This document shows positions 3,818 to 40,080 of a stretch of DNA of 64,000 bases, piece after piece. The notes under the pieces are model-generated. The model was not told where the DNA came from. It saw nothing but the letters and a program-made list of their open reading frames with translations, and searched no databases. Source of the DNA: an uncultured Myxococcales bacterium (GTDB lineage: Bacteria; Myxococcota_A; UBA9042); NCBI GenBank assembly GCA_903842345.1, contig CAIMLR010000036.1, positions 186,001 to 250,000 of the forward strand. The letters run 5' to 3'. Position numbers and translations under genes: made by a program. Numbering within the stretch: the stretch's first letter is position 1; each line of letters starts with the position of its first letter.

Positions 3818-4381
3818 TCAAACCGTCGGTTCGATCGGCTCGTCAAAATGTCGGTACTGCAGCGCTTCCGCGACGTGTTCGGCGCCGATGTGCGCCTGGC
3901 CGTCCAGATCCGCGATCGTCCGCGCCACACGCCAGATGCGATCGTGCGCACGCGGCGAGAGGCCAAAGCGGCTGAGCGCCCGCAGCAGCAGGTCGTGGAC
4001 AGCCGGCGTCAGCGGACTCAGTTCCTGCAGGCGGCGCATCGGCACTTCCGCGTTCACGCCGCCGCCCAATTCAGCGTAACGCTCCCGCTGGCGCGCCCGT
4101 GCTTGGGCCACCCGCACCCGCACGTCCGCAGAAGTCTCGCCCGCCGGCCCCTGGCGCAGGGCTTCAGCCGGCAGCGCACGCAGCTGAATCTGGATGTCGA
4201 TGCGGTCAAGAATCGGCCCCGAAAGCCGCGCACGGTAGCGTTCCAAGGCGACGGCGGAACAGATGCAGGCCTTGTGGAGCGATCCCAGGTTGCCGCACGG
4301 GCACCCATTGGACGCGGCCACCATCATGAACCGCGCGGGGAAACGCGTTGTCTGACGGGCCCGCGTCACGTGCGCCACGCC
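3818..4381 (-). pseudogene. comM: comM, C-terminal part separated by prophage
   Basis: This piece encodes the last 187 residues of a ComM/YifB-type AAA+ ATPase: VAHVTRARQTTRFPARFMMV, NGCPCG, the RARLSGPILDRIDIQ sensor/arginine-finger region and the C-terminal helical domain ending EPIEPTV. The 5' part lies at 40052-41023. Reading this strand upstream, ComM similarity stops exactly at the Gly codon (4379-4381), where phage sequence begins. The frame continues into the phage to an ATG at 4570, but those residues are unrelated to ComM. ComM is a hexameric branch-migration helicase used to integrate DNA during natural transformation. The gene is split, not decayed, and excision would restore it. 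Confidence 0.93.
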
Positions 4382-4405
4382 TTCTTCGGACGGGAAACGC
4401 TCGCC
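4360..4405. other. attL: attL, left prophage junction
   Basis: Host comM sequence runs to the GCC at 4379-4381 and phage sequence starts at 4382. The same GCC at 40055-40057 marks the other junction. Only three bases are shared, as expected for a large serine integrase, which uses a 2-bp crossover inside otherwise different half-sites. The exact crossover dinucleotide (GC or CC) cannot be told from sequence. Confidence 0.88.
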
Positions 4406-4430
4406 AAGTGATGCGGGTTTCCCGTCCGAA
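4385..4430. repeat. Perfect 14-bp inverted repeat beside attL core
   Basis: TTCGGACGGGAAAC at 4385-4398 is repeated inverted at 4417-4430 with an 18-base spacer. It begins 3 bases inside the phage from the GCC core and ends 15 bases beyond the stop codon of the leftward gene at 4446. It could be the terminator of the leftward genes, an integrase or directionality-factor binding site, or both. Confidence 0.75.
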
Positions 4431-4443
4431 TGTGATCGGTGAG
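4429..4443. repeat. Copy 1 of 15-bp direct repeat AATGTGATCGGTGAG
   Basis: An identical 15-mer occurs at 7657-7671. This copy overlaps the right arm of the inverted repeat next to attL and lies just before the 4446 stop codon; the other lies just before the iteron array. The similarity goes a little further in loose form (GGCTTATT against GCGTATTA). Confidence 0.7.
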
Positions 4444-4445
4444 GC

Positions 4446-4886
4446 TTATTCGGGGTCTTGGACCGAACCGAGAAGGTGGGGGTTCTTGTCCAGCAGGTAG
4501 TATAGCTTCGTCGTCGCCAAGGCGGGAGTCGTCGCGCCTGACTCGTACCGCACGATCTGGCTCTGGCCACCTCCGATGACGCAGCCCATCTGCAACTGGG
4601 TCAGGTTCAAGCGGTGGCGGATTGCCAAGTAGTAGTCGGCTGGCCAATTCCAGCGGGCATCACGGATGTCCTTTTTGCGCTTCACTTCCGCAAGTTTCTG
4701 GGTCAGTTCGAGTTGCGCCCACTCCAAGGCAGCGTCCTGCGCGTCGTTGTCGGGGTCGACGTGACCGCAAGCAAGGCAACGCTGGACGGCGTATTCATAC
4801 CAGACCTTGACGCGTCCTTCGCGAACGCCGCCTTGGTTGGTGCTGTGGATCATTTGCTCGCCGCAGGGGCACTTCTTGGTGTCCAT
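4446..4886 (-). CDS. MqsA-like zinc-ribbon and HTH regulator
   Basis: The 146-residue protein has an N-terminal Cys region (KCPCGEQM and RCLACGH, about residues 5-41) and a C-terminal helix-turn-helix (RHRLNLTQLQMGCVIGGGQS then IVRYESGATTPALATTKLYY). This is the layout of MqsA/YgiT-type antitoxins, which bind zinc with the N-terminus and DNA with the C-terminus. There is no MqsR-like toxin beside it; its upstream neighbour is a lipoprotein, 3 bases away. In a prophage it may act as repressor or regulator of the leftward genes. It is the last gene before attL. Confidence 0.7.
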   Translation of the reverse strand: MDTKKCPCGEQMIHSTNQGGVREGRVKVWYEYAVQRCLACGHVDPDNDAQDAALEWAQLELTQKLAEVKRKKDIRDARWNWPADYYLAIRHRLNLTQLQMGCVIGGGQSQIVRYESGATTPALATTKLYYLLDKNPHLLGSVQDPE

Positions 4887-4889
4887 CGC

Positions 4890-5216
4890 TTAGTTCCCCT
4901 TGCAGACGTCGGTGTGGACGCAGCCGTTGAAGCCGCAAGAATCGGTGGTGCACGGATCTTGGTCGTCGCAAGGTTGGACCTTGGTGGTCGTGCAAGCCGT
5001 GTCTGCTGGTTGAACGGTGCCTGCCGGTTCGCATCCGCAGGTCGTGCTTTTTGCGCCACAGGTAGCCGTCTGGCAGACGTAGGATTCGCCGGTCACCTGC
5101 GAAGCATCCGCCTGCGAAGCGTCGGCACTGGCATCCGAAGCGGACAGGCCAGCCCCCGAAGGGGCACCCGTTTCGCACGCGGCCAAGAACATCATAGAAA
5201 CAATCATCTTCTTCAT
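4890..5216 (-). CDS. Small Cys-rich lipoprotein
   Basis: The 108-residue protein begins MKKMIVSMMFLAACETG, a short lipoprotein signal with lipobox LAAC (Cys at about 14). An Ala/Ser/Asp linker follows, then a Cys-rich part with CDDQDPCTTDSCGFNGCVH, a repeat unit common in surface proteins of Myxococcota and relatives. It is carried in the leftward accessory group of the prophage and is not an obvious virion gene. A lysogenic-conversion role such as altering the host surface or excluding other phages is plausible but only inferred. AGGGAGAT precedes the ATG by about 6 bases. Confidence 0.75.
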   Translation of the reverse strand: MKKMIVSMMFLAACETGAPSGAGLSASDASADASQADASQVTGESYVCQTATCGAKSTTCGCEPAGTVQPADTACTTTKVQPCDDQDPCTTDSCGFNGCVHTDVCKGN

Positions 5217-5238
5217 CTTCTATCTCCCTTGAAATGCC

Positions 5239-5649
5239 CTAGCGGGCGTCACGGATGGCGTCGATGCCACCCTGTTGCTCTGAAATGTTCTTCATCCAGC
5301 CGTTGCAGAAGACCACGAGATCCTTGATGGTCTTCTCGCGGAGTGCTGTCGGCTGATCGTTGGCGTCGAGTTCGGCGGCGACTTGGTAGATGACGCCCGC
5401 CTGCTCAAACGAGACGGGCATGTAGCCGGTGTAAACCTTGCAGAAGACGACATCGGGGTCGCAGCACAGGTCGCCGTTCTGCTCGTAGTAGTGCGCCACA
5501 GACCACGTAGCAGGACCGATCCGCTCGACGTGGACAGCCATGTAGCCGTGCCCATTGTCGATTTTGCGACTCTGGCCGATTTGGAGACCCTCGATCATGG
5601 CGTTGAGGACTTGGGTGGCACCGACCTTCAGGACGATGGGGTTGCTCAT
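5239..5649 (-). CDS. DUF6908-like protein
   Basis: The 136-residue protein contains ATWSVAHYYEQNGDLCCDPD followed by VVFCKVYTGYMPVSFEQAGV, which resembles the DUF6908 family seen on mobile elements, whose function is not known. The match is by eye and moderate. Its start overlaps the stop of the HTH gene at 5646 by 4 bases (ATGA), so the two are translationally coupled. Confidence 0.6.
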   Translation of the reverse strand: MSNPIVLKVGATQVLNAMIEGLQIGQSRKIDNGHGYMAVHVERIGPATWSVAHYYEQNGDLCCDPDVVFCKVYTGYMPVSFEQAGVIYQVAAELDANDQPTALREKTIKDLVVFCNGWMKNISEQQGGIDAIRDAR

Positions 5650-5933
5650 TTGGCATCCTTGCTGGCGTTGAGGTGTTGGTGAAGGACGCGGATTGCCCGC
5701 TGTCCCTGCTGGAATTCGCGACGGTTCGTGAGGGCGTGCTTGGCAAGGGCTGGGCCGATGAGGCCGTCCTTGACGAGTGCGTCCACGTCGGGACCCTCGA
5801 TGGTCCAGTGCCGCGTCGAAACCTCGATGTAGGCAATCACGCCCTCGCGGCAGTACCGGCGAAACGCAGTTGGCGAGACGCCCAGTTGGGCGGACGCTTC
5901 TTGAACGGTCAGGTATGGGTTCGTCATGGTCAT
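5646..5933 (-). CDS. Small HTH (excisionase-like) protein
   Basis: The 95-residue protein begins with a MerR/excisionase-type helix-turn-helix: PYLTVQEASAQLGVSPTAFR then RYCREGVIAYIEVSTRHWTI. Such proteins act as recombination directionality factors or regulators. The start at 5933 is chosen because GAGG precedes it by 6 bases; a second ATG is at 5927. It could supply the directionality factor for the serine integrase, although it lies at the opposite end of the linear prophage; on the circular form the two are close. Confidence 0.65.
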   Translation of the reverse strand: MTMTNPYLTVQEASAQLGVSPTAFRRYCREGVIAYIEVSTRHWTIEGPDVDALVKDGLIGPALAKHALTNRREFQQGQRAIRVLHQHLNASKDAK

Positions 5934-5962
5934 GGTGGTCCTCGTTGGGCGACTGCCGGTCT

Positions 5963-5991
5963 GGGGCGGGGTGGTTAATCCACCCCGCCCC
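5963..5991. terminator. GC-rich hairpin between leftward genes
   Basis: Perfect 12-bp arms (GGGGCGGGGTGG at 5963-5974 and its complement at 5980-5991) with a 5-base loop lie between the stop of the pentapeptide-repeat gene and the start of the HTH gene. There is no T-run on either strand. It may terminate, or stabilise the upstream message. Confidence 0.55.
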
Positions 5992-6003
5992 ATCCCTACG
6001 CGG

Positions 6004-6333
6004 TTAGTTCTGCGGATCAGCCGCGATGAACTCGACGACCTGCGTGACCGTCACGCCTTCCGCGTTCTTGAAGGTGCAGGCACCGTCAAACGTCGCGCCG
6101 CCGATCTGCGAACCGGCGAACAGCGCCGAGTCGAAGATGCAGCCCGTGAACGTCGCGTTCGACAGGTCGGCCCCGTCGAAGTTGACGCCGCGAAACGACG
6201 TGTCGCGGACCTCGCGACCGGCGAAGTTCATCTGCGTTCCGTGCTTGCCCTTGGTGGCGACCCACACCTGGTTCAGCGCGTCCATGCCCTTGATCTCGCC
6301 GTTCGACCACTTGCTCTTGATGGGATTCGACAT
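6004..6333 (-). CDS. Short pentapeptide-repeat protein
   Basis: The 109-residue protein has a central block with the five-residue A(D/N)LXX-like periodicity: MNFAGREVRDTSFRGVNFDG then ADLSNATFTGCIFDSALFAG, flanked by other sequence. Such repeats fold as a right-handed quadrilateral helix; functions vary, including DNA mimicry and gyrase protection. Only about nine repeats are present, so a specific role cannot be given. It is the first gene of the leftward group; AGAGAG precedes the ATG. Confidence 0.75.
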   Translation of the reverse strand: MSNPIKSKWSNGEIKGMDALNQVWVATKGKHGTQMNFAGREVRDTSFRGVNFDGADLSNATFTGCIFDSALFAGSQIGGATFDGACTFKNAEGVTVTQVVEFIAADPQN

Positions 6334-6902
6334 TTGCTCTCTCTCCGTGCGCCCCGCCGATTTGCGGGGCTATCTGACCTTCGACGTTTCGGAACCTCCC
6401 GAAACCATAGAAGAATTCAAACACGCCGAGAGACTGTGCACAATTCCCATCTAGTTGATATTGCTGGGGATTCGCTGGACCCACGTATCACATCTGAGGT
6501 TCCCGAACGGGTCCAGAAGCTTGTGAAGGCTTGTGTAGGATTTGTCACGAAGTATCATCGAGTTGCGCTCGAAAGGCACTCGCTGATCAGGACCGGACTG
6601 GTTGCGATGGGGTCGACTGGCGACCGGCGCGAACCAAGACCAACAGGTCAGCGACTGGGCGACGAATGGCCTTCGCTTGGCCTCCGTGATGCGCTGACGG
6701 TTCTGGCCAGTGTGTGGCGGTCAGGACCGGACGAAAGTCACTGAGCGCAAAGGCGAACCACGCAGCCACACGGACCATCCACGAGTCGTGGGCTGATCCA
6801 AACGGACTCCAGCGTCTGTACTCACATGGAAGGCACGCAGCCAGCAGGTGCTGGAAGACGCGAACCGGTCGATGTGGTCCCTGCGGGGACGGAGGTGTCC
6901 AG
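6334..6902. promoter_or_regulatory. Divergent intergenic region in prophage
   Basis: This 569-base region separates the leftward accessory genes from the rightward early genes and must hold the divergent promoters. It contains a GC hairpin (GCCCCGC at 6351-6357 and 6364-6370), a TTTCGG dyad (6387-6392 and 6399-6404) and an 8-bp dyad CTGGACCC (6475-6482 and 6509-6516). Open frames here have no good ribosome site. No convincing sigma-70 promoter could be fixed by eye. Confidence 0.45.
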
Positions 6903-7259
6903 ATGAAGATGAGTGATGACAAGGTAAAGAAGGCAGCACATATGGCGATGATAACGAGGATCGCGGAGAGCAATGGCATCAGCGAGGAAGAGGCTGCAAA
7001 GGCCGTAGGTGATGTGGTTGACACGGTGTTTGCACGCAAATGCGTCCACAACGTCGGGTGTGCCGTCATAAACATCTATCGTGCGGCGGAGCATTTCAAT
7101 GCTGAGCGCGACCATAGCGTCGTCAGTGACTTGGTAGTGGCGTTCATTCCCTTGCTCGAACTTATGTCCCCAGACGGTCTTATCCCGTTCTTCGCAACTC
7201 TCAAACCGGGCATATTCGGTGGAGTCGAAGCCGACGCCAAGGAGGTACCTAATGGCTAA
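6903..7259 (+). CDS. Hypothetical phage early protein
   Basis: The 118-residue product starts MKMSDDKVKKAAHMAMITRI after a GGAGGT site; the longer frame back to 6714 reads through the promoter region. It is mostly helical, with one hydrophobic stretch (VVSDLVVAFIPLLELM). No family was recognised. Its last 8 bases overlap the next gene. Confidence 0.65.
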   Translation: MKMSDDKVKKAAHMAMITRIAESNGISEEEAAKAVGDVVDTVFARKCVHNVGCAVINIYRAAEHFNAERDHSVVSDLVVAFIPLLELMSPDGLIPFFATLKPGIFGGVEADAKEVPNG

Positions 7260-7593
7260 GCAGAAAGAACACGATGATTGGTTCTGTCAGGACGTGAAGG
7301 AGTTCGCCGCCGCCGTCACAGCGGTCTGCGGTGGCAACACGTCGCACTCGGTGGAGAACGATGCCACCGGCTGCAAGCAGGTGGTCTGCTCGTCAAACGC
7401 CGATACCTGGGAGTTTGAACATCGGATCGGCCCAGACGTTGAGCACTGGGTGATCTCAGGCAACCAAGGGCAGCGAGGTGGGTTCATCCGCACGGAGTTC
7501 CACGATTGCGCCGACGCCTTGGACGCGTTGCACACGATGCGGGACCACTACGAGGAGATGGCCGAAGCGGGACGAGCAGCAGAAGCCGCTTAG
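7252..7593 (+). CDS. Hypothetical phage early protein
   Basis: The 113-residue product starts MAKQKEHDDWFCQDVKEFAA and is preceded by AAGGAGGT, inside the end of the previous gene. It has a central DTWEFEHRIG strand pattern and an acidic helical C-terminus. No family was recognised. A strong hairpin follows the stop. Confidence 0.65.
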   Translation: MAKQKEHDDWFCQDVKEFAAAVTAVCGGNTSHSVENDATGCKQVVCSSNADTWEFEHRIGPDVEHWVISGNQGQRGGFIRTEFHDCADALDALHTMRDHYEEMAEAGRAAEAA

Positions 7594-7608
7594 GACCCCA
7601 AGAAGGTG

Positions 7609-7642
7609 CCGTTGGGGACGCTACGATCGCCGTCCCCAACGG
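7609..7642 (+). terminator. Hairpin ending the first early pair
   Basis: Perfect 12-bp arms CCGTTGGGGACG (7609-7620) and its complement (7631-7642) start 15 bases after the stop at 7593. Position suggests a terminator or a transcript-end stabiliser; no T-run follows. Confidence 0.6.
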
Positions 7643-7656
7643 AGATCCTTCGGCTA

Positions 7657-7671
7657 AATGTGATCGGTGAG
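7657..7671. repeat. Copy 2 of 15-bp direct repeat AATGTGATCGGTGAG
   Basis: Identical to 4429-4443 near attL. It lies 3 bases before the first iteron-like unit, so the same signal marks the phage left end and the edge of the iteron region. Confidence 0.7.
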
Positions 7672-7674
7672 CGT

Positions 7675-7759
7675 ATTACAGCTTCGGTAAGTACCCTTAC
7701 AGATCAGCGTAAGGTCAACTTACAGATCAGCGTAAGTTCGCATTACAGACCCTGTCATA
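7675..7759. repeat. Iteron-like array of four units, possible origin or operator
   Basis: Two identical 18-mers CTTACAGATCAGCGTAAG lie at 7696-7713 and 7719-7736. Diverged units lie at 7675-7691 (ATTACAGCTTCGGTAAG) and 7742-7759 (ATTACAGACCCTGTCATA). Start-to-start spacing is 21, 23 and 23 bp, about two helical turns. Each full unit is a short dyad, CTTAC-8-GTAAG. Regular spacing on one face of the helix suggests cooperative binding by an initiator or repressor. The next confident gene, at 8546, encodes a protein with a DNA-binding look. Confidence 0.75.
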
Positions 7760-8545
7760 CATAAGAGGGAATCTGTGAAGAGGGGTTCTGGAAAGAGGTC
7801 CTATGATCCAGTAGGTACTATCCTTTTGGCTGCTGGCGCAGCCGAAGAGGTAGTCTGGAACCAAGAGGTTCATGGACCAAGAGGGTGGCATTCTGGTTTC
7901 AAGGTGTTCTCTCTGCCGATTCCCGTCGCCCCTTTTGGAAGACCGAGTTCAGGCGAAGCCAAACGGTGTCCAACCGAGAACGACAATCAACACCATCCCC
8001 AAACCATCTCTGCTACTGTAAATATGCGAATCCCGAACCCCGACCAGCGGAGCCTGTCCCTTACGGGATTCGGAAGTACCCACCACGTGTTTGTTAAGAC
8101 TTGTAAGGACGGACGAGAACGACTCTTTTGGGGAAACGGATCGTTAGCGACACCTACCACTACCTTTGTGACAGCTTTGCAACGCCTTCACCCGCAGCTC
8201 GTTGGGCGTCCTTTTGGCGGACCATAGGGTTGAAACCCGACGACTGCGGGTAGAGTGAATCAGAGCAGACGACTCCGTGGCCTTGGAAGCCAACCACAGC
8301 TAAACCATTGAACCACACGACAACATCACCATCCCCTACCAATCGAAAGCACACTGTAAGCAAGTTCCCTGAGAGACACAGCGCAAGGCCGGAAACCAAC
8401 CGCTGACACGTCTACCGCCTAGCAAGGCAAACACGGATTCTGAATCAACAATTTGGCCGTCTTTCAAGTCCCCCTCGCTCTAATCCAGCGTGGTTTCCGG
8501 TTTAGGGGCTTGGAAGACGGTCAAGCCTTGTTCAGGAGACCGACG
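7760..8545. other. Long region without a convincing gene
   Basis: About 790 bases follow the iterons. A GTG frame at 7775-8227 (150 codons, AGAGGGA just upstream) is possible, but its codon use is unlike the other phage genes (many AGG, AGA and GGA) and no family is visible. The stretch holds four spaced CTTTTGG elements (7823-7829, 7932-7938, 8125-8131, 8211-8217) and several AAGAGG words. It may be an origin region, a structured RNA or decayed DNA. No tRNA was found in it. Confidence 0.4.
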
Positions 8546-10161: not shown

Positions 10162-10311
10162 TTCCCACTTCCAACGCGCCCAAGTCCCACGAGCGCGGTT
10201 CGCAGTTGGCCACGTCCTGCACCGGATGGCAACCGGCTCGATAGACGCGCTATGCGCGGTACGATTTGGGTGGCGCACAACAACCAAACGCCACCGAAAC
10301 GGAGCCAAATA

Positions 10312-11120: not shown

Positions 11121-11150
11121 GTCCGCGCCCCAATAGGCCTTTTATGCGTC

Positions 11151-14637: not shown

Positions 14638-16035
14638 ATGCCACGCATCGTCCCCCTCCCTGCTCGGCCAAACCGGGAAACAACCGCAGTCAGTGTCGAC
14701 CTAGACCTGAATGCGGCGTGGGGACTGTATGACAAGCAAGCACGCTTCGTCTTTGGCTCGTCCCTGTTCGCCATCATGCTCGGCGGCGTGGGATCGGGGA
14801 AGTCCGTCGCGCTGGTGTGCAAGGCCATCGTGCTCGCCCTGCGGAACCCCGGTTCTACTGGCGCGCTACTTGGCAGAACCGGCGTCGACCTCTCGACCGT
14901 GCTACTCCCTTCCCTGTTCGACATGCTGGCCAAGGCCCAAGAGCAATGCGGCATCTCGCTGATCTCCGACTACGACAAGGGCAACGCCTGCCTGACGCTG
15001 ATCAACGGGTCGAAGATCTGGTTCCGTCCGTACAACCGCATCCAGAAGATCCGTGGCCTCACGCTGACCTGGGCCTGCGCCGACGAGGTGGAATTCTCAG
15101 AAGCCAACCCAGAGGAGATCTGGTCAGTCCTCACTGGTCGTCTTCGTGGCAAAGGTCCGTGCCCACAGTTGGCGTTTGCCACGTCACCCAACGGACTACG
15201 CGGGATCACGGCCAAGTTCGTGACCGCCCAGCGCCACTACCAAGTCGCTATCCAGAACAATGACCTACAGGCCCAGCGAACCTACCGGCAGTACAACGTC
15301 GTCACCGCCACGAGCTTCGACAACCCGTACCTGCCTGAGTATTTCTTCGATTCGCTGCGCTCAATGAGCAAACGACGCTACGAGCAGGAAGCACTAGGCA
15401 AGGTCCTGCAACCGCTCAACACCGTTCTCTCCCTTGAACCCCGCCACATGGTCGACCACGACTGGCGCACCAAGGAGAACCGCAATCTGGCGTGGATCTT
15501 GTGCGTGGACTGGGGCGGTCAGGACCACCACGTAGCCTTGATGATCCAGATCGACCGCAAGAACAAGCGTTACGTCGTCGCTGACGAACTGATTGGCGAC
15601 GGGATGCCTCGCGGCAAGTTCCAGCGCCTGTTGTCCGACTGGGTGACCAGCAAGGGAATCGACCCATGCGTGGCCGGTGTGGACCGTGCAGCACCCGGCG
15701 AGAACCAGATCCTGCAAAGCCGACTCAGAAACACGCCGATCCGGTTCATGGACAGCAAGATCCAGCAGAAGGTGTCAACCGGCGTCGAGTACATCCGCGA
15801 CCTGATGGACCCGCAGTCCGTCGAACCGCAGCTCGTGTTTGCCAAGTCCCTAGCTCAGGTAACTACCGGCGTCACCGCACCGATTTGCCCAGCGCTTCGG
15901 AACTACTGCTTCCACATGGACAGCGATGGCATTCCCCGCGACATCCCCAACAAGGACAACATCAACGACCACATGCCCGACGCGATGCGCTACGGCCTGA
16001 TGGCGGCGAAGGACTACGCATCCTCCCGTTTGTAG
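14638..16035 (+). CDS. terL: Terminase large subunit
   Basis: The 465-residue protein has the packaging ATPase signature: Walker A GGVGSGKS at about residues 49-56, Walker B WACADEVEF near 145, and a coupling-like segment AFATSPNG. The C-terminal nuclease half has CVDWGGQDH and NDHMPDAMRYGLMAA, giving the acidic residues expected of the RNase H-like fold. It pumps DNA into the prohead and cuts it. The ATG directly follows the small subunit's stop. Confidence 0.92.
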   Translation: MPRIVPLPARPNRETTAVSVDLDLNAAWGLYDKQARFVFGSSLFAIMLGGVGSGKSVALVCKAIVLALRNPGSTGALLGRTGVDLSTVLLPSLFDMLAKAQEQCGISLISDYDKGNACLTLINGSKIWFRPYNRIQKIRGLTLTWACADEVEFSEANPEEIWSVLTGRLRGKGPCPQLAFATSPNGLRGITAKFVTAQRHYQVAIQNNDLQAQRTYRQYNVVTATSFDNPYLPEYFFDSLRSMSKRRYEQEALGKVLQPLNTVLSLEPRHMVDHDWRTKENRNLAWILCVDWGGQDHHVALMIQIDRKNKRYVVADELIGDGMPRGKFQRLLSDWVTSKGIDPCVAGVDRAAPGENQILQSRLRNTPIRFMDSKIQQKVSTGVEYIRDLMDPQSVEPQLVFAKSLAQVTTGVTAPICPALRNYCFHMDSDGIPRDIPNKDNINDHMPDAMRYGLMAAKDYASSRL

Positions 16036-19267: not shown

Positions 19268-20167
19268 ATGGCTAACGTATTCGCTCCTCTTTTGCCTACA
19301 GCAATCGAAGTATTCTATCAGCAACTCGCTTCCAAATCGGCTGCATTCGAGAAGATTGCTCGTATGCGTTCCGACCCGGTAGCCAGCCTCAAGTTGGCTG
19401 AACTCCGCACTGGTGGTTCTGCCGGTTTTGGCACTTGGGACGGCGGCGACGTCACCCCAGGCGACTTCACCGGTCTTGGTTCCACTGCCGTGTCCTCGCA
19501 GGCCTACAAGAAGCAGATGTTCATCAGCAAGTACGACGCCGAAGACAACCCAATGGTTGTTGCCGACATCGCATCAAGATTGGCCGATGAAGCTGCCTAC
19601 AAACTGGGCCGTTTGGTTTGGACCGCTCTGGGCAACGTCGCCTCGACCGACCACCCAACCGTGGCAGGCAAGAAGATCTGCGACGCGCACACGTTCGGCA
19701 CCAACAAGGGCACCTCGGCGCTCTCGTTGTCTTCGCTGAACGCTGCACGCGTCGCAATGCGTGGTTACAAGAACCACGACGGCGACATCGTCCCATTCGA
19801 AGGCTACAACCTGTTTGTGCCGCCTTCTTTGGAAACGATGGGCAAGCAGTTGATTCGTTCCGTCAGCTACCCGAACTCCCCAACCAATGGTGGTGAGTCG
19901 GACATCATCAACTCGTTCAACGGTTCCGACTCCGGCATCGTGGGAGTTGAGGTTGCCCCGCTGATGAGCGATTCCAACGATTGGGCATTGATCTGCGGCG
20001 CTTCTGACGCACGCAAGCCGTTTGATTTGTGGCTCCGTTCGCCAATCGAGTTGATCCCAACGATCGACCCGAAGACGCAGGGCCTCTACTTCAACGTCTC
20101 GTTCCGCGCCAGTGTGTTGGTAAAGCCTGACTGCGACACGTCCATCTTCTACAGCTCCGTGGCGTAA
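19268..20167 (+). CDS. Major capsid protein
   Basis: The 299-residue protein follows the scaffold-like gene and precedes the connector genes. It has a helix with ASKSAAFEKIARM, a central YKKQMFISKYDAEDNPM, a long segment around FEGYNLFVPPSLETMGKQL, and a C-terminal half with GVEVAPLMSDSNDWALICGA typical of HK97-fold or Mu-like coat proteins. A strong stem-loop right after the gene would help give a high level of this message. Fold assignment is by pattern and place. Confidence 0.8.
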   Translation: MANVFAPLLPTAIEVFYQQLASKSAAFEKIARMRSDPVASLKLAELRTGGSAGFGTWDGGDVTPGDFTGLGSTAVSSQAYKKQMFISKYDAEDNPMVVADIASRLADEAAYKLGRLVWTALGNVASTDHPTVAGKKICDAHTFGTNKGTSALSLSSLNAARVAMRGYKNHDGDIVPFEGYNLFVPPSLETMGKQLIRSVSYPNSPTNGGESDIINSFNGSDSGIVGVEVAPLMSDSNDWALICGASDARKPFDLWLRSPIELIPTIDPKTQGLYFNVSFRASVLVKPDCDTSIFYSSVA

Positions 20168-24780: not shown

Positions 24781-27189
24781 ATGGCTATCCCCGCCGCGAA
24801 AGTAGAAACCCGCATCGTATTGGAGACCGACGACCGTGCCAGCAAAGGCATTAAGGACGCCCACGGTGCTCTGCGTGACTTCGGCCACGAAGCCGAAGGC
24901 GTTGGCGGTCAGTTCCACGAAATGGGCGAGAAGGCGGCTGGCGCGCTCTCCAGCACATCCCGCCTCGCACGTCCGCTAGCTGGGTTTGCCGGTGAAGCTG
25001 GTGGCGAAGTCCGCGAACTCGGTCACGCCATGCACGGCTTCGCATTGGCGACTGAGCTTATCCCAGGTCCGCTCGGAATGGTTGCCGGTGGTGTCGTCGC
25101 ATTGGGTGTCGCCGCCGTGTTGACCAACCAGCACATGGAGAAGTTGGCGGCACAGAACCGCCTCCTGAACACCCCCCTTAGCCAGAACCTGCGTGGCGAA
25201 CTCGACCTCGACGCTGAGGGCGCACGGAAGGCAGCAGAAGCGATGGAGGGACTGCGCTCCCACACGGCTCTGAACAACACGATCCTGAAAGAAGTCATCG
25301 CCAACGCTAAATCTTTGGGGGAGGAACCGGCAAAGGCCGTCGAAGACCTCGCCAAGGCTTGGGCCGGTGGCGTTGTCGGTGTCCTTGCCTATCAGGCCGC
25401 ACACGGACGTATGGCCGGTCTGGACCGTGAGTCACTGGACGCGACCGCTGAGCGCCTCGGTCTTGACCGAGAAGCACTGGGTCTGGCTGACAAACAACTC
25501 ACGCTCGGCCAGCAACTAAACGACCAAACGCTTGCCGCTGCAAAGGCTCGCCACAGCGTGGACGTGGACATCGCGGCGGTCAACGACGCCCTGTACAAGT
25601 CGATCCACGGCTACACCGACGAAGCGAAACGTGCCGGTAAGGAGCAATACGCCGCCCTACTTGAACGCCTCGGCCCAGAATCCCAGCTAACTGAGGAAGC
25701 CGACCGCCAGGTCAAGTACACGCAGCAGACGCTGACGTTCAACAAGGAGCAGGCCGCAGAAGAGAAGGCGCGATCCGAAGACCAGAAGCTCGCCAACCTA
25801 CAGGCAGAACTGGCAGGCACCAAGGCCGAACAGCGCCAATTGAAGCTCGCGTCCATTGGTGAACAACAGGCAGAGGTAGCAAAGAAGCTCGCCACCTTGG
25901 AGGAACTGCGTGCCGTCATTGGCGGTGGCCTGACCGACGATCAGAAGCGTCAGCTCGAAATCCTGAAGGCCCAGTTGGAGGTCGAAACCAAGGCGATCCA
26001 CGAGGCCGATAACTCAGAGAAGAAGGCCGCGCACAAGAAGGCAGCGGAGGACGCGAAGAAGCGCCAAACCGAATCTGCGAAGGAACGCACCGACTACCAG
26101 AAGGCAATCGGAGAGGTCGAGTCGCAGCAGATGCTCGCCGCCGCAGGTAACGACGCGATGAAGCTCGCGAAGGTCCAAGAGCAGAACCTGATTGCCGCTG
26201 CTAACCGAGAGGAAACGGCGATTCACTTCTCGCTCGACAGCGCACGCGTCAAAGCGGCCAAGTTTGAGGCGATCGAAGGCAAGCTGGATCAGGACTTGGC
26301 GAACCTACACAGGGAGGCGACCGACCAAGAGCTAACCACCGCTCAGGAACGCGACGACGCATTGGCCCAGTTGGAAATGGCGCGGCTCGCTGAGAAGAAG
26401 AAGCACCTGCTCGCCGAAGACGACCTCAACGGTGCGCATGCCATCGACGTCCAGATTGCCGACCTCGACCTGCACCAGAAGCAAATCGAGGAAGAGCGAC
26501 GTTTTGCGACCGAGATGCTGAGCGCGAAATCCGACCAAGCGAAGGCCGAGATCCAGCAGGCCCACGAGCACAACCTTGAACTGCTGAAGCTGAACGGCGC
26601 GAACAAGAACGGATCGGACAAGAACGGCACGGAGAACGCCGCACGCGGATACGCGTCCCTTGAAGCAGCGGCGAACGCAGCCAACGCGGCAGGCACGAAG
26701 GGCGCGCAAGCGGTTGGCAATTTGGCCAAGCATTCTGCCCAGCTCAACAAAGACTGGGAGCAGACCAAGAAGGCCGGTGGTGGCATTGTCGATATGGCAC
26801 CCGGTATGGTCGAAGCTGCTGGTTCCATCGCCGCTGGCTTCGTGGACGGCGAGAAGTCCAAGGCCGGAATCATGGCGATCACTGAGTTTGCTGCTGGTTG
26901 GGCGTCCTACCCGAACCCAGTCGGCATGGCTTCCCACTTCACGGCAGCGGCGATCTACGGGTCCATTGCTGGTGGCATCATCGGTGGTGGTGGTTCATCG
27001 GCTCCCGGTGGTGGTGGCGGTTCCGGTGGTTCGTCGCCGTTCAGCCCATCAGGTGGGTCCGCTGGGCAAGGTGGTCATACCATCAACGTCATTTATGGCG
27101 TTCTCGGCACCAAGCAGCAGCAGGGCTTGGCCATACAGCAGGCAATCGCAGCAACCCGTGGCACTGGCTTCTCCGGCAAGGGGGTCTAA
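24781..27189 (+). CDS. Tail tape measure protein
   Basis: The 802-residue protein is the longest in the tail block except the tail tip protein. It has long charged helical and coiled-coil stretches (about residues 300-620), a hydrophobic region near residues 80-120 (ELIPGPLGMVAGGVVALGVA, AVLTNQHMEKLAAQ), and a Gly-rich C-terminal end after FTAAAIYGSIAGGIIGGGGS. These are standard for tape measures, which set tail length and line the tube. By length it would fit a tail of roughly 120 nm at 0.15 nm per residue, an estimate only. Confidence 0.88.
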   Translation: MAIPAAKVETRIVLETDDRASKGIKDAHGALRDFGHEAEGVGGQFHEMGEKAAGALSSTSRLARPLAGFAGEAGGEVRELGHAMHGFALATELIPGPLGMVAGGVVALGVAAVLTNQHMEKLAAQNRLLNTPLSQNLRGELDLDAEGARKAAEAMEGLRSHTALNNTILKEVIANAKSLGEEPAKAVEDLAKAWAGGVVGVLAYQAAHGRMAGLDRESLDATAERLGLDREALGLADKQLTLGQQLNDQTLAAAKARHSVDVDIAAVNDALYKSIHGYTDEAKRAGKEQYAALLERLGPESQLTEEADRQVKYTQQTLTFNKEQAAEEKARSEDQKLANLQAELAGTKAEQRQLKLASIGEQQAEVAKKLATLEELRAVIGGGLTDDQKRQLEILKAQLEVETKAIHEADNSEKKAAHKKAAEDAKKRQTESAKERTDYQKAIGEVESQQMLAAAGNDAMKLAKVQEQNLIAAANREETAIHFSLDSARVKAAKFEAIEGKLDQDLANLHREATDQELTTAQERDDALAQLEMARLAEKKKHLLAEDDLNGAHAIDVQIADLDLHQKQIEEERRFATEMLSAKSDQAKAEIQQAHEHNLELLKLNGANKNGSDKNGTENAARGYASLEAAANAANAAGTKGAQAVGNLAKHSAQLNKDWEQTKKAGGGIVDMAPGMVEAAGSIAAGFVDGEKSKAGIMAITEFAAGWASYPNPVGMASHFTAAAIYGSIAGGIIGGGGSSAPGGGGGSGGSSPFSPSGGSAGQGGHTINVIYGVLGTKQQQGLAIQQAIAATRGTGFSGKGV

Positions 27190-31231: not shown

Positions 31232-31234
31232 CGA

Positions 31235-32868: not shown

Positions 32869-32874
32869 TGGTCC

Positions 32875-32887: not shown

Positions 32888-32914
32888 GAACGCCTTGATA
32901 AGAAGGTGTAAACG

Positions 32915-33964: not shown

Positions 33965-33983
33965 ACGAGAAGGACGCTCACCA

Positions 33984-34549: not shown

Positions 34550-34581
34550 AGTTCGGACAGACACACAACTAGGGGTATGCA

Positions 34582-34764
34582 ATGGACATTTCAACCGCGA
34601 TCGCAACCATTCTTGCCGCGTTCCACGGCTTCAACACGCTGATCCGTCCGCAGATCCCAGCCGCCTCTTGGGCGAAGCTCGGCGCTGTCGGTCGCGTCGT
34701 GGACGTCCTGCTGGGCAACTACGGCAACACGGCCAACATCCCCGTCATAGACGAGCAGAAGTAA
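34582..34764 (+). CDS. Small holin-like protein
   Basis: The 60-residue product starts MDISTAIATILAAFHGFNTL after AGGGG. It has one moderately hydrophobic N-terminal segment and a C-terminal GNYGNTANIPVID. Size and place in the lysis group suggest a holin or holin-associated protein, but the membrane segment is weak, so the function is tentative. Confidence 0.5.
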   Translation: MDISTAIATILAAFHGFNTLIRPQIPAASWAKLGAVGRVVDVLLGNYGNTANIPVIDEQK

Positions 34765-34767
34765 CCA

Positions 34768-35778
34768 GTGGCCAAGCACGCGCTGGTCATTCCCGACATG
34801 CACGTTGGTTTCCGACGTGCCACCAACGGCAACCTTACGCCACTCCACGATGAATCGGCCTTGAAGGCAGCGCTGAAGATGGCGCGGCAGATCCGGCCAA
34901 GCGAAGTAGTCATGCTGGGCGACAACCTCGACCTCGCCGCGTGGTCGTCCAAGTTCGTCCCGACGCCCGACCTTAGGGAAACGACACAGGCCAGCCTCGA
35001 ATGCCTCCGTGACTTTCTCGTCGCCCTTCGGAAAGCCGTTGGACCCAAGTGCCGCCTGACCTACCTCGAAGGCAACCACGAGGCACGAATAGGCAAGCTC
35101 TTGCTCGTCGTGGCAGGTGAAGCCTACGGTCTGTCGCCAGCCGGTTCGGACGTCCCTGCGTTGTCGGTACCTGGGCTGCTGCGATTGGCCGACAAAGACC
35201 TACGCATCAACTACCTCGGACCATACGGCGCGACGTACTGGCTCTGGGGCAAGGTCGAGTGCACGCACGGCGACCTGATCAGGAAGCGTGGCGGTCACAC
35301 GGTTGGCGCTCGCCTTGTTGAGCACCCGAACCACCAGACCTTTGGACACATCCACCGCTGCGAGCTGGCTGGCCGAACGCTTCACGGCGCGTCGGGTCCG
35401 CACACCGTCTGGGCAATGTCTCCGGGGACGCTAGCCCGACTCGATGGTGTCGTCCCAGCAGGAACGGCGCACGTCGATTGGCAGCAAGGACTGGGGCTGA
35501 TCACGCTCGATGGCGAAGACATAGCGATGTTTCTGATCCCGATCACCAACGGCAAAGCGATGTTGCCGGGAGGTTTGAAGCCCATGATGGACCTAGACGA
35601 TGGTATAGACGACGAGAAGGTAGTCACGAAGCTAGCCGAACCTGAACCGAAGGACGCCGACAGGTTCCGCGAATTGCAATGGGTCGAAACGCTCCCGCAG
35701 GTCTGGGAACAACGCCACGTACCTGTCCAGCAGGACGACGCGATCCTTGGGATCAACCTGACGGACGTGCTGTCATGA
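34768..35778 (+). CDS. Metallophosphoesterase in lysis region
   Basis: The 336-residue product starts with GTG. It carries the calcineurin-type metal-binding set: IPDMHVG, VVMLGDNLDLAAW, YLEGNHEARIGK, a CTHGDLI and a final FGHIHRCELAG, giving the Asp, Asn and His ligands of a two-metal site. It would hydrolyse a phosphate ester, perhaps of nucleic acid or nucleotides; the substrate is not known. It is coupled to the endolysin gene by ATGA, which is an unusual position for such an enzyme. Confidence 0.85.
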   Translation: MAKHALVIPDMHVGFRRATNGNLTPLHDESALKAALKMARQIRPSEVVMLGDNLDLAAWSSKFVPTPDLRETTQASLECLRDFLVALRKAVGPKCRLTYLEGNHEARIGKLLLVVAGEAYGLSPAGSDVPALSVPGLLRLADKDLRINYLGPYGATYWLWGKVECTHGDLIRKRGGHTVGARLVEHPNHQTFGHIHRCELAGRTLHGASGPHTVWAMSPGTLARLDGVVPAGTAHVDWQQGLGLITLDGEDIAMFLIPITNGKAMLPGGLKPMMDLDDGIDDEKVVTKLAEPEPKDADRFRELQWVETLPQVWEQRHVPVQQDDAILGINLTDVLS

Positions 35779-36278
35779 CCGGAGAAGTGCTGATCGCTCG
35801 CGGACGCTCAGCCATCGGCAAAGGCGTCGTTTACGGCTTAGGCAAGGGAGGTCTTTGGCCTCTCGATAAACTGCCGTGCCGATCGTCGGCGAAGCTGGTC
35901 AACGGTGTTGCGAAGACCGCGCTCTGGTGCGACTGCTCAGGTTTTGTAGCTTGGGTGCTTGGCCGTTCACGGAAGGACAGCAAGGACTGGCCTTGGTGGT
36001 TGTCGACCGATTCGGTGTACGACGACGCGAAGGACGACGGCAAACACGTCCTGTTTACGAAGCTCGACAAGGCCGAACCGGGCTGTCTGGCTGTCTACTC
36101 CGACTGGAAGGACGCGGACGGGACGCACCACGAAGGACACATCGCCGTTGTTTCAGATCCTGCACTGCATCTTGTTATAGACTGCTCATCTTCTCAGAAT
36201 GGCATCGCGGAACATGCGCAGCCTGTCTTCTGGTCAGAACATCACGCCGTAATATTTTGCGCTTATCGCGGTTCTTAG
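35775..36278 (+). CDS. NlpC/P60-type endolysin
   Basis: The 167-residue product starts MTGEVLIARGRSAIGKGVVY. The cysteine-peptidase core is visible: LWCDCSGFVAWVLG with catalytic Cys, then EGHIAVVSD with catalytic His, and a polar residue near VIDCSSSQ. NlpC/P60 enzymes cut peptide stems of peptidoglycan. No signal peptide is seen, so release probably depends on the holin. It is the last gene of the lysis group. Confidence 0.8.
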   Translation: MTGEVLIARGRSAIGKGVVYGLGKGGLWPLDKLPCRSSAKLVNGVAKTALWCDCSGFVAWVLGRSRKDSKDWPWWLSTDSVYDDAKDDGKHVLFTKLDKAEPGCLAVYSDWKDADGTHHEGHIAVVSDPALHLVIDCSSSQNGIAEHAQPVFWSEHHAVIFCAYRGS

Positions 36279-36337
36279 AACCTGCAACGTCGCTTTCAGA
36301 ACTTCTGTACCTTGTCCATTTTTTGACCGAGCTTCCA

Positions 36338-36430
36338 ATATACGGTGATGATATACCGTATATCGTCAGACTATATCACCGACTAGGCGACAGCCATATA
36401 GCCTATAATAGTCTGAAACACATAGGCTAT
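36338..36430. promoter_or_regulatory. AT-rich dyad cluster, candidate lysogeny operator
   Basis: The 310-base gap after the endolysin gene is AT-rich and carries several dyads: ATATACGGT (36338-36346 with complement at 36355-36363), CAGACTAT (36367-36374 with complement at 36408-36415), and ATAGCCTAT (36398-36406 with complement at 36422-36430). TATAAT lies at 36404-36409 inside the cluster, a possible -10 box, with no clear -35. This is how repressor operators over a promoter look. The next gene, 160 bases on, encodes a winged-helix-like protein. Confidence 0.6.
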
Positions 36431-36588
36431 GCACCTGCACAGCTATACCTACCTGCCGGACGACGGGGCCACGCCTGCCTACACGATCTTCGGCATGCAT
36501 GCCAAAAAGTGGCGGTCTGATGGAATCCGCTTGACGAGCCTCCCAACATTTCGTATTCTCCGTTGCGGCACTGCGCCGGAGGTACTCG

Positions 36589-37131
36589 ATGACGAACCAG
36601 CCGATGGAAACGAAGGTAGAGGAACTGCTACGCGCGAGTCGTGCTGAACTGGCGCGCAACGAGACCACCTTGGAAGAGTACGACCGCAATCGATTCCCCC
36701 TGTACGCCATCGTGATGGCAAACAGGGCTGTCGTGGCGGCACTTTCCGAACTTCTGGGGGCACAACCTGCACGCCTTCCTGCGTATGTTCCCCGTCCGGC
36801 CCAGAAGCCAGACGCCCCGGTCGCGCAGCGCCGCACGCACGGTGGTCGGGCGCGCATGGAACGCGTCAAAGCAGCGTTCTCCGCTGTGGGCAACATCGCA
36901 ATGTCTCCGAACGACGTGGCCCACAAGGTCAACGAGGGCTTGTTGCCGGACGACCCGAACTTCATGAAACGTGACGCGATCAACAGCATGATGCACCGCG
37001 AAACCGACGTGTTCGAGAAGGACGGCTACGGCAAGTACCGCGTCATCCCCGCCATCTTCGACGCCGAACCGGTGTCGATGTTCTCCGACGATGCCGACGC
37101 GAACGGCGGCAACGCTGAGGTGGTCCAATGA
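36589..37131 (+). CDS. Winged-helix-like phage protein, candidate lysogeny regulator
   Basis: The 180-residue product starts MTNQPMETKVEELLRASRAE. The N-terminal third is helical and charged. A basic linker (RRTHGGRARMER) leads to a C-terminal part that reads like a winged helix: AMSPNDVAHKVNEGLLPDDP, INSMMHRETDVFEKDGYGKY. It lies between the lysis genes and the integrase, behind the dyad cluster, so a regulator role is plausible. It is not similar to CI-type repressors, so this is inference. Confidence 0.55.
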   Translation: MTNQPMETKVEELLRASRAELARNETTLEEYDRNRFPLYAIVMANRAVVAALSELLGAQPARLPAYVPRPAQKPDAPVAQRRTHGGRARMERVKAAFSAVGNIAMSPNDVAHKVNEGLLPDDPNFMKRDAINSMMHRETDVFEKDGYGKYRVIPAIFDAEPVSMFSDDADANGGNAEVVQ

Positions 37132-37190
37132 GAAGGTAGGAACCGGCACGCGCCTGTAGTGCACAGGGGGCGCGCGTGTCGGGAATGCCC

Positions 37191-37236
37191 ACCCCGCCTG
37201 AGAGCCGACTTTCGACGGCAGACTCTCAGGCGGGGT
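37191..37236 (+). terminator. 14-bp hairpin after the winged-helix gene
   Basis: ACCCCGCCTGAGAG (37191-37204) pairs perfectly with 37223-37236 over an 18-base loop, 60 bases after the stop at 37131. The loop includes part of GACGGCAGACT (37214-37224), which recurs at 37547-37557. Confidence 0.6.
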
Positions 37237-37599
37237 GCCCTGGATGTCAAGGTGCCGGTGGAGAGATGCGCTGTAGCTGGCGCATCACGTACCGGAAAGC
37301 TGGACGCGGAACATGTGAAACGCCCCGTATCGACCGGTAGTAGCTTAGCTACTGCCACAAGGCGGCGTCAACTTCTCCGCACGCGTCCGGCACCACGTTG
37401 TCTGGCCGAAGGGCCATTCTGTTCGGTGTAACCGTGCGTATTTATTATTGTACCGTACGCGATTGCCGTTGTGGTTGTGTGGTTGAGTTCCGCACGATCG
37501 ATGGTCGTCGCGTGCCCATGCACCAGCACTAACTGAAGATCTGCTTGACGGCAGACTGATGGACGCCTGACCGGCGTCGGCACGACCTGTGCCAAACTT

Positions 37600-37642
37600 G
37601 GCAGGGACGGTGGGGTCACCCCACCGTCCCTGCCGTGGTTTT
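37600..37642 (+). terminator. Rho-independent terminator
   Basis: A perfect 16-bp stem (37600-37615 with 37619-37634, 3-base loop) is followed by GTGGTTTTT. This is the best intrinsic terminator in the window, the only phage stem with a clear T-run. Confidence 0.8.
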
Positions 37643-37729
37643 TGGGCCACCATCCGCTTGACGCAGGATGACCGACGCGTGCTACCTTCCAGCGCACAAC
37701 GCCCCCAAGCGGAAACAACGGCGACGACC

Positions 37730-37918
37730 ATGCCCAGTTCAGGCACCGACGAATCGACTGGACTGGTCGTCGCCGCGTTGCTGGCCGAAGCCGACCGGCT
37801 AGACGCGCTCGCGTTGGTCTTGCCGGACTTCGCCGACGCTGCGACAACACGAGCGCTGGCTGAACGGACGCGGGCACAGGCTACCGCGCTCGCCCTGTCA
37901 CCGGATGACGAAGACTAA
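37730..37918 (+). CDS. Small hypothetical phage protein
   Basis: The 62-residue product starts MPSSGTDESTGLVVAALLAE and is helical, Ala/Leu/Asp-rich. The ribosome site is weak. It lies 19 bases before the next gene, probably in the same transcript. No family was recognised. Confidence 0.45.
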   Translation: MPSSGTDESTGLVVAALLAEADRLDALALVLPDFADAATTRALAERTRAQATALALSPDDED

Positions 37919-37937
37919 CCACCCACAAGGAGTACAC

Positions 37938-38177
37938 ATGGCTTTCCCAGACGCAAATCATCAGGTCAACGAGGCGCATCAAGTTGGCGAGTCATTCAAA
38001 CCGTATGGCGACGCTGGCGGGACCGTCCCCGAGGTCTGGGTCTCGCGCGGGCATTGGAAGCAAGATGGCGTCACGCATAAGGTCTGGGGAATTGGGACCA
38101 CGAAGGCGGCGGCGCAGGCAGACGCCGAACGGCGCGTGAATGCCCATGAAATCAGCGAATGGGCGCAACAGCCCTAG
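37938..38177 (+). CDS. Small hypothetical phage protein next to integrase
   Basis: The 79-residue product starts MAFPDANHQVNEAHQVGESF after AAGGAG. It has GHWKQDGVTHKVWGIGTTKA followed by a helix, a small alpha-beta pattern. It converges on the integrase gene; the two stops share CTAG (38174-38177). No family was recognised. Confidence 0.6.
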   Translation: MAFPDANHQVNEAHQVGESFKPYGDAGGTVPEVWVSRGHWKQDGVTHKVWGIGTTKAAAQADAERRVNAHEISEWAQQP

Positions 38178-39997
38178 CGGGTCGCCAGCGCCTCAAACGC
38201 CGCCTTCGTCGCCGCCAACTCGGCTTCGCTCCACATCCGCATACCAGATCGGACGCGGGTGGCTGGCTCAGGAAGCTTGCCGAACCTGTACAGGCGCTTC
38301 AGCGTTGCCGCCGTCGTCCCCAAGCGCTCGGCCACCTGCGACAACAGCAGACCGTTTGACGACGGGATCAGCATCGCCGTCTTCTTGTCGCCACCCAGCA
38401 GGTCCGCCCACGTCGCGAGATCGCTGTGTGGGTACAGAACGCCACCGTCGGCGGTCGGCAGTCGCAACGAGATCGACTCGATTCCGATCTGCGACACGAA
38501 GATCGCCGACACGTACTTTTTGCACCACGCGCGCTTCTGCTCGTTGCTCCACGACGAATCGAACACCCAGGCATCCGGCGCAAACGTCGCGTCCAACTCG
38601 ATCGCAGTCGGCTGCACAGGACCGGCGACAACCCCAGCCAGCTTCGCTTCGGCATCGCGGCGATCCTTGCGGATTCCGTCTTGCTGCTGGTCGTGCTTGG
38701 CCCTGTCGATCCGACCGTCCACGTACAGGTCGGCGAGGCGCGCTTCCTTGGCCGCGAAGCCGTCCAGAAGCTTCTCCAGCCGTTTCCGCTCGCTCGTCGT
38801 GTCGGGCGTCTTCTTTGCCGCTTCCCGTGCGCCGGAAACCACATCCTTGTCCCTTGTCAGTGAGACAAGGTAGCGATCAACCGCGATGTTGATTCGCGCG
38901 ACGGGTGGTTCGCCGAACTGGCACTTGCCGATGCCCTTGGTCCTTGTCGACTTGCAGGCGCAGACGTAGCGGACCTGATTGTTGTGCGTCTTGCCGGTGT
39001 TGTGCCCATAGGCGACGTGGCCGGTCTGTTCACCCGTCAGGTCAAAGAAGCCGTTGATTACAGCACCGTGGGTGTCTGGCGCGTCATGGGCACGGACGAA
39101 GCCCGACAGATAGGCGTCCTTGGACGTCTCCCGCATCGACACGGAGATCCGCGCAACCCGATCAACCAGCTTCGCCTGCGCCTTCGCCCACGTTTCGTCC
39201 GACACCAACTGCGGCAATTGCCCTTCACCGCCGAAGATGCGAACGCGGATGACGTCTTCGTCCTTGCGCGCGATCTTTTTGCGTTCTGGCTGGCGACCGG
39301 CGACGGTCGGGTAGGCTTCGCCCCGCCGCTGGTCGAACGTCACGATGCCCTTATAGATGGTGTTGGTCAGGACGTTCTTGATCGAATTCCGCGTGTAGCC
39401 GAGATCGCTGGCGATCGATTCGCTGCTTTCACCTGCGAGAAAGCGATCATAGGCGTCTGCGATCGCCTGCGCTTCGCCCGTGTACGTCCAGCCGTTCTTG
39501 CGGTCGTACTGCGTGCCGCGTGGTGCAATCCCCGACACCCAGTGGCCTGCCTTCCGGCGCTGCTCCTTGCCCGCTTGGGCACGGCGCGTGATCTCCACCT
39601 TCTCCTTGCCAGCCAGCAGCGCGAGGATTCCGCTTACCAAGGCGTCATCGGCCTTGGACAGATCACGGACACCCTGCGGCGTGTAGATCTTGGTTGCAGT
39701 CGCTTGGCAGGATGAAAGCACGCCCAGATCAAGGTTGGATGCACGGATCAGCCGGTCGATCGAGTCGACGGCGATGTGCGTGTCAGGGTCGCGGATCGCG
39801 GGGAGGACCTCTTGGAGCCATTCGCGGGTCTGGGCGACAGCGGACCCCGAAACGCCTACGATCTCGACCCAGAGGACGTCGGAAACACCCTCGCGCTGGG
39901 CAATTTTGCGGATCTCGTGGCGCTGGCGCTCAAGCCCCTCGCCGCCAATGCCTTCCTGTTGATCTGTGGAAACCCGAACTACGCCGACCAGCTTCAT
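38174..39997 (-). CDS. int: Large serine integrase with extra C-terminal HTH
   Basis: The 607-residue protein has the serine recombinase order. The catalytic domain has Ser10 in VVRVSTDQQ and an Arg motif VDSIDRLIR (78-85). A recombinase domain follows, then a zinc ribbon around YVCACKS and GKCQFG (about residues 340-360), then a coiled coil (ERKRLEKLLDGFAAKEARLA). The last 59 residues form an added MerR/excisionase-like HTH: LSQVAERLGTTAATLKRLYR, then GMRMWSEAEL. The ATG at 39997 is chosen for its AGGAGG 6 bases upstream over the in-frame TTG at 40003. It catalyses attP x attB recombination and lies 57 bases from attR. Confidence 0.93.
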   Translation of the reverse strand: MKLVGVVRVSTDQQEGIGGEGLERQRHEIRKIAQREGVSDVLWVEIVGVSGSAVAQTREWLQEVLPAIRDPDTHIAVDSIDRLIRASNLDLGVLSSCQATATKIYTPQGVRDLSKADDALVSGILALLAGKEKVEITRRAQAGKEQRRKAGHWVSGIAPRGTQYDRKNGWTYTGEAQAIADAYDRFLAGESSESIASDLGYTRNSIKNVLTNTIYKGIVTFDQRRGEAYPTVAGRQPERKKIARKDEDVIRVRIFGGEGQLPQLVSDETWAKAQAKLVDRVARISVSMRETSKDAYLSGFVRAHDAPDTHGAVINGFFDLTGEQTGHVAYGHNTGKTHNNQVRYVCACKSTRTKGIGKCQFGEPPVARINIAVDRYLVSLTRDKDVVSGAREAAKKTPDTTSERKRLEKLLDGFAAKEARLADLYVDGRIDRAKHDQQQDGIRKDRRDAEAKLAGVVAGPVQPTAIELDATFAPDAWVFDSSWSNEQKRAWCKKYVSAIFVSQIGIESISLRLPTADGGVLYPHSDLATWADLLGGDKKTAMLIPSSNGLLLSQVAERLGTTAATLKRLYRFGKLPEPATRVRSGMRMWSEAELAATKAAFEALATR

Positions 39998-40035
39998 GTC
40001 CAACCTCCTGAAAGGACGGATTTTAGCACAGCCCG

Positions 40036-40080
40036 CGAAACGCTACAATTGTCAGCCGCTTTCCAGCGGCTGCCGCAGCG
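40036..40080. other. attR: attR, right prophage junction
   Basis: Phage sequence ends at the GCC at 40055-40057, and comM continues at 40058. The word GAAACGCT occurs in both phage arms (40036-40043 here and 4394-4401 at the left end), 12 bases from the core on each side and in the same orientation. Confidence 0.88.

Follow-up and report, generated by a model that had tools for sequence, protein, structure and literature searches.

Contig CAIMLR010000036.1 (C36; 446 kb) of an uncultured Myxococcales bacterium carries a comM gene whose two parts lie on either side of 35,676 bp of phage-like DNA, and the locus raises the question of what divided the gene, by which enzyme, and at exactly which bases. 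We analyzed the 64,000-nucleotide stretch C36:186001–250000 (the window), which belongs to a draft genome of 5.85 Mb in 50 contigs that is 96% complete. The intervening DNA is a prophage of the tailed-phage kind that truly lies in comM, and its crossover is 6 bp away from where an initial annotation of the window had placed it. We hold with high confidence that the integration of a temperate tailed phage, catalyzed by its own large serine recombinase (LSR), divided comM.

Two parts of one comM gene

The gene reads on the minus strand, and recA is the next gene behind it (Table 1). Its two parts match positions 3–322 and 316–499 of the profile TIGR00368 (“YifB family Mg chelatase-like AAA ATPase”), and the gene has the TIGR00368 match and the PF13541, PF01078, and PF13335 domains that define ComM/YifB; a solved relative, 8rxd, is entitled “Competence related protein ComM.” In silico removal of the prophage yields a single uninterrupted ComM/YifB frame of 509 residues (510 codons with the stop). 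A second PF01078 gene was not found in the genome at E 1e-10. For comparison of the junction, we used 29 comM loci from relatives, including those of 4 other genomes of the same genus (congeners). The initial annotation had proposed a search of related genomes for an intact comM, and the gene is indeed intact, in one frame, in 4 of 4 congeners. The joined ComM aligns with these 4 loci at 90–94% identity over 505–509 residues with 0 gaps; therefore, no comM codon was lost, and both the insertion and its place are real.

The insertion site falls between the segments that we take to be Walker B (VLFLDE, residues 299–304) and sensor 1/CPC (residues ~347–351), with positions counted on the sequence. 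The interrupted 5′ gene encodes 321 ComM residues followed by Ser-Gly-stop, that is, two phage codons and a stop codon. The cut falls inside the AAA+ domain, past Walker B and short of sensor 1, and ComM function is therefore likely lost while the prophage is integrated, as far as can be judged from the coding sequence. The host genome encodes ComEC and DprA, and the cut may lower transformation with heterologous DNA and thereby shield the prophage from replacement by transformation. Much of what the initial annotation had described is upheld here: a prophage that splits comM (both comM parts, the LSR, and phage structural genes are present), an uninterrupted 509-residue frame upon excision, an attB between Walker B and the sensor part, and a host gene that lost nothing, the last of which holds at the level of codons.

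A chimera assembled from unrelated phage and host DNA is scarcely credible. The genome is a draft of 50 contigs and the locus is known from assembly alone, but the flanking sequences belong to a single gene, present in one copy, and meet in one register on a 446-kb contig, and recA follows comM as it does in relatives (directly downstream in 27 of the 27 testable loci, the other 2 of the 29 having 25 and 184 bases downstream).

Position of the crossover

GCC occurs at both ends of the element, as does TTC three bases along, in one register, and a join at either triplet keeps 509 residues. The initial annotation had placed the crossover in GCC (4379–4381 and 40055–40057), with an element starting at 4382 and a native Ser322 within “ESG.” We scanned joins shifted by −9 to +15 bp relative to the GCC join, scored their 72-nucleotide matches against the 4 congeners, and checked residue 322. 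The comparison revealed that (i) shifts of +3 to +6, all of which amount to a crossover in TTC, fitted best, with 58, 58, 61, and 59 of 72 nucleotides matched in the 4 congeners compared with 55, 56, 58, and 56 for the GCC join, so that each congener fits the TTC join better by 2–3 nucleotides; (ii) residue 322 comes out as Glu if the join is at TTC and as Ser if it is at GCC, and of the 29 relatives examined, the 28 that cover this residue all have Asp (19) or Glu (9) and none has Ser; and (iii) the host side of attL continues GCC TTC TTC (Gly323, Glu322, and core codon 321; TTCTTC at 4382–4387), and the comM-like GAA beside attL would be a coincidence under a GCC crossover. The empty site of all 4 congeners, which read EEG at the join, fits the flanks joined under a TTC core, whereas a GCC core fails at residue 322. 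The “ESG” is thus partly phage-coded, because GCT at 40058–40060 is phage sequence and the native residue 322 would be Glu.

On these comparisons, we assign the core to TTC and the element to 4388–40063, with its length of 35,676 bp unchanged. The initially assigned core, start, and Ser322 consequently give way, and a crossover in GCC with a native Ser322 is very improbable, even though GCC is common to both ends in the same register and also gives the 509-residue frame. The initial annotation had itself named a differing sequence at the join in relatives as the outcome that would tell against it: the EEG of the congeners does so for the exact GCC join, and the insertion stands after the 6-bp shift. 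In 6.2% of random breakpoint pairs, the two ends have 3 bp or more in common; therefore, neither GCC nor TTC is evidence by itself, and the evidence is the gapless homology. Two short identities in one register can misplace a crossover by a few bases when a sequence is read without tools, and conserved residues settle the matter.

In the mechanism we propose, the LSR would pair the phage attP (..GCCGCT-TTC-GGACGG..) with the comM attB (..CACGCCTTC-TTC-CAGCGG..), and strands would be exchanged at the central dinucleotide within the common TTC. The predicted attB sequence is CACGCCTTCTTCCAGCGG, and the predicted circular attP junction is GCCGCTTTCGGACGG. The products would be the comM 5′ part, with its 321 codons, two phage codons, and stop, and the 3′ part beside recA; excision, aided by a directionality factor (candidate in Table 1), would restore comM. 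The enzyme and the anatomy (LSR beside attR, terminase, head protease, and tape measure) fit conservative site-specific recombination. This LSR presumably made the insertion, and its action through TTC is very likely.

Several points weigh against this mechanism. A relative with this LSR at the same comM site was not found in the 52-genome set of relatives, IMG/VR, or the genome contigs. Dyad symmetry was not detected in attB or attP, where a background fraction of 0.17 was the best result from 12 tests centered on the TTC core, and tests at GCC centers were no better than those at TTC. The prophage is known from a single assembly alone. Moreover, with GCC and TTC in one register, a crossover in GCC followed by a change of codon 322 could, strictly speaking, have given the same arrangement. 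LSR sites are often imperfect; we discarded dyad symmetry as a proof of the core, none of the tests being significant at GCC or TTC centers.

Recombinase, phage genes, and the recA neighborhood

The prophage LSR (P0001) is encoded by a 609-codon frame that adjoins attR. It contains a Resolvase domain (PF00239, E 1.7e-14) and a Recombinase domain (PF07508, E 6.3e-10, above the cut-off), and it matches a PHROG integrase family and, weakly, two solved YokA sequences (E 6e-6 and 8e-6). The Ser of its RVST motif, presumably the catalytic Ser, is invariant in 8 aligned LSR sequences, as are C348, C350, C361, and H329. The latter four residues are absent from a second LSR of the same genome (L012). 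The zinc β-ribbon PF13408 was not detected in the prophage LSR by the Pfam profile; it was detected in P0004 and fell below the cut-off in L077. The last 70 residues of the prophage LSR alone weakly matched MerR_1 (E 5e-4, below the cut-off), and the whole protein matched PHROG 597 at residues 545–598 (E 6.4e-5); among the tails of four LSR relatives, the best MerR_1 score was 6.5e-4, and one tail gave no match. The AlphaFold model had a mean predicted local distance difference test score of 56.8, which was too poor for a fold search, and the tail in this low-confidence model is arranged as helix-helix-strand-strand-helix. These features tentatively hint at a MerR-like C-terminal tail, which we treat as a lead. 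A natural LSR with such a tail was not found among the papers listed in literature searches, as judged by titles or the first lines of abstracts, which is no proof of absence.

Relatives of the LSR were sought in the 52-genome set, IMG/VR, the phages collection, and the genome contigs. In the 52-genome set, 6 genomes contained them: the host itself, 3 congeners, and 2 others, at 32–54% identity over matched stretches; comM is intact in 4 of these (G001, G002, G004, and G051) and runs off the contig in G020. The scan of genome contigs found 11 loci (4 in CAIYBN, 5 in CAIYWC, 1 in CAITYF, and 1 in JADHTP). No relative was found in IMG/VR, either by single protein or by alignment, and none of the 59 matching records in the phages collection covered 80% of the query, the best identity among the 20 matches listed being 31.6%. 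In the searches made here, the clade was confined to congeners and a small number of related metagenome-assembled genomes (MAGs). The second LSR of the host (L012 1501–3267; G000:C12:100696) belongs to the clade, is 35% identical to the prophage LSR over nearly the whole length, lacks the Cys residues, and lies after a gene that by eye resembles an acyl-CoA dehydrogenase. Among loci L005–L019 (G001, G002, and G004), G001 and G004 each have multiple LSR genes of the clade, some of them lying on 4–5-kb contigs, and these perhaps represent a multicopy mobile element.

Terminase, prohead protease, tape measure, and CHAP-like proteins identify the element as a tailed phage (Table 1), and terminase, head protease, and tail genes together with an integrase at one end constitute the gene content of a temperate member of Caudoviricetes. 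The profiles searched named neither a portal nor a major capsid protein in the prophage. The G+C content of 2-kb blocks is 57–63% inside the prophage and 63–70% in the flanks. Among the 377 phylum genomes, 3 have relatives of the terminase at E ≤1e-20, namely the host (three copies, on C36, C15, and C35), G011, and G004. The host copies mark two more prophages with matching structural genes (G000:C15, ~24.3–49.5 kb; G000:C35, from 0.6 kb), which match the window genes in order from ~14.6 to 34 kb. Tyrosine recombinases lie near the C15 prophage; therefore, related phages of one genome may use different integration modules.

These sister prophages bear on whether the element has become defective and can no longer move, with comM lost for good. 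We consider this rather unlikely: a single assembly is the sole source on excision and the directionality factor is just a candidate, but the genes for the LSR, terminase, head, and tail have open frames, and the structural genes are matched along their length by the two sister prophages. We favor a prophage that can probably still excise and restore comM.

Table 1. Coordinates of comM, the prophage, and neighboring features in the window.
Feature	Position	Strand	Remarks
recA	2682–3725	−	next gene downstream of comM; prophage now between recA and comM 5′ part
comM 3′ part	3818–4387	−	codons 321–509 plus stop codon; encodes sensor 1, the CPC motif, and Mg_chelatase_C; left core copy is codon 321 (4385–4387)
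Left core copy TTC (attL)	4385–4387		join scan
Perfect 14-bp inverted repeat, strong stem	4385–4430		left end, between MqsA-like gene and comM 3′ part
Prophage, 35,676 bp	4388–40063		corrected limits
MqsA-family zinc/helix-turn-helix protein, putatively repressor-like	4446–4886	−	profile matches
HTH_17/excisionase-like small protein, candidate directionality factor	5646–5993	−	TIGR01764 below cut-off
Terminase large subunit	14638–16035	+	profile matches
Prohead protease-like head protein	19268–20167	+	profile matches
Tape measure protein	24781–27189	+	weak profile match
CHAP-like protein, possible endolysin	35679–36278	+	below Pfam cut-off
Large serine recombinase	38174–39997	−	starts at ATG, in a frame that is open from TTG 40003; contains Resolvase and Recombinase domains, a Cys/His region that is divergent, and a weakly supported MerR-like tail at the C terminus
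comM 5′ part	40061–41023	−	codons 1–321; encodes the ChlI/Lon-like domain, Walker A, and Walker B; right core copy is codon 321 (40061–40063)
Right core copy TTC (attR)	40061–40063		join scan

The 14-bp inverted repeat begins with the left core and so overlaps attP; it folds at −38.4 kcal/mol (z −5.03). A T-run terminator or sigma-70-like promoter was not found in 3600–4600. One may speculate that comM was chosen partly for the recA behind it: the insertion would disable a helicase that would aid replacement of the prophage by transforming DNA and, by putting phage DNA and a strong hairpin upstream of recA, the switch of SOS induction, would tune recA, with the MerR/excisionase-like tail of the LSR clade serving as a built-in directionality or site-reading module. 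We regard this combined scenario as improbable, and any effect of the prophage on recA is conjectural. If the coupling of comM and recA holds, it offers a testable link between prophage placement and recA control.

comM as a target of other elements

A survey of the 377 phylum genomes for split comM genes gave PF01078 matches in 340, and 16 genomes, the host included, were followed up from the best ~150 matches for their weak or double PF01078 matches. In at least 2 further genomes, comM is interrupted next to either an LSR gene or a piece of one. In G151, comM is broken at residue 351 (NPC|PC) with an LSR gene at the break, and the remainder of the gene lies 42 kb away on the same contig. In G055, comM also stops at 351, its two parts lie on different contigs, the comM match holds one TGA, and the LSR piece at the break shares 57.7% identity with the G151 LSR across 111 residues. 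These breaks resemble the one in the window in the company of an LSR and differ from it in position and enzyme, the G151 LSR being only 21% identical to the prophage LSR. Thus, unrelated LSRs of one phylum meet comM at different codons. ComM stops at 350 in G053 (L054, G053:C160), followed by 645 bases of other DNA in which three LSR queries found no LSR; at 351 in G202 (L056, G202:C350), at a contig end with no LSR seen; and at 352 in G273, near what by eye appears to be an insertion sequence transposase, without LSR evidence. In 8 genomes (G155, G288, G306, G115, G095, G205, G225, and G250), one edge of a comM piece lies ~20 bases or less from the end of its contig; G058 and G184 were assigned to no break class.

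Phage and viral records hold similar pieces. Among Acinetobacter records in the phages collection, some have an end that falls within comM, near residues 279–284. An Evtepia phage (NatCom_42594, PV036445.1; L096, 4205–5104) carries an N-terminal ComM part ending in SLAHHGV (~residue 302) near an apparent DNA methyltransferase (by eye). In Acetoanaerobium phage ANDSL2_ph1 (PP197248.1, titled complete genome; L095), a ComM AAA fragment (~188 to NPCPC; 5935–6495) abuts an LSR gene (6455–8095), and this phage seems to carry a piece of its likely target gene beside its own integrase. Two IMG/VR records (L050, IMGVR_UViG_3300020045_018875; L053, IMGVR_UViG_3300049859_000318) place a ComM-like gene next to a partial LSR-like frame in a setting of phage genes, the gene in L050 (3967–6542) being a whole 529-codon frame. 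In a third (L052, IMGVR_UViG_3300012930_000164, 5001–5113), ComM homology runs from residue 278 to the contig end beside an apparent DNA methylase gene (by eye). Thus, several elements cut the 279–352 stretch of ComM at different codons; none of these other breaks was seen at 321–323.

Three reports describe comparable systems. According to Durrant 2022 (PMC10083194), a gene annotated as magnesium chelatase/ATP-dependent protease is the target of 12.4% of predicted site-specific LSRs, and the elements described there resemble ours in being inserted inside a coding sequence with exchange at a core dinucleotide; the LSR here differs in coming from a clade that our searches recovered from congeners and a small number of related MAGs alone. 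The Wolbachia phage WO of the sr1WO group is likewise a prophage with a serine recombinase between two parts of one target gene, a magnesium chelatase gene, in a different host; nucleotides 1–23 and 22–45 of its 45-nucleotide attB lie at the two ends, so that ~2 nucleotides are shared (PMC9203015). We read the gene annotations in both of these reports as the ComM/YifB family. Interruption of comM is frequent in A. baumannii and lowers transformation; AbaR and other islands resemble our prophage in being mobile DNA that lies within the Mg_chelatase domain of comM, whereas AbaR is called Tn7-like, which implies transposition rather than an LSR (PMC11472951). LSR insertion in comM is therefore already documented, and the present prophage is a further example, which adds an attB and attP defined to 3 bp to an LSR target class reported as strongly enriched.

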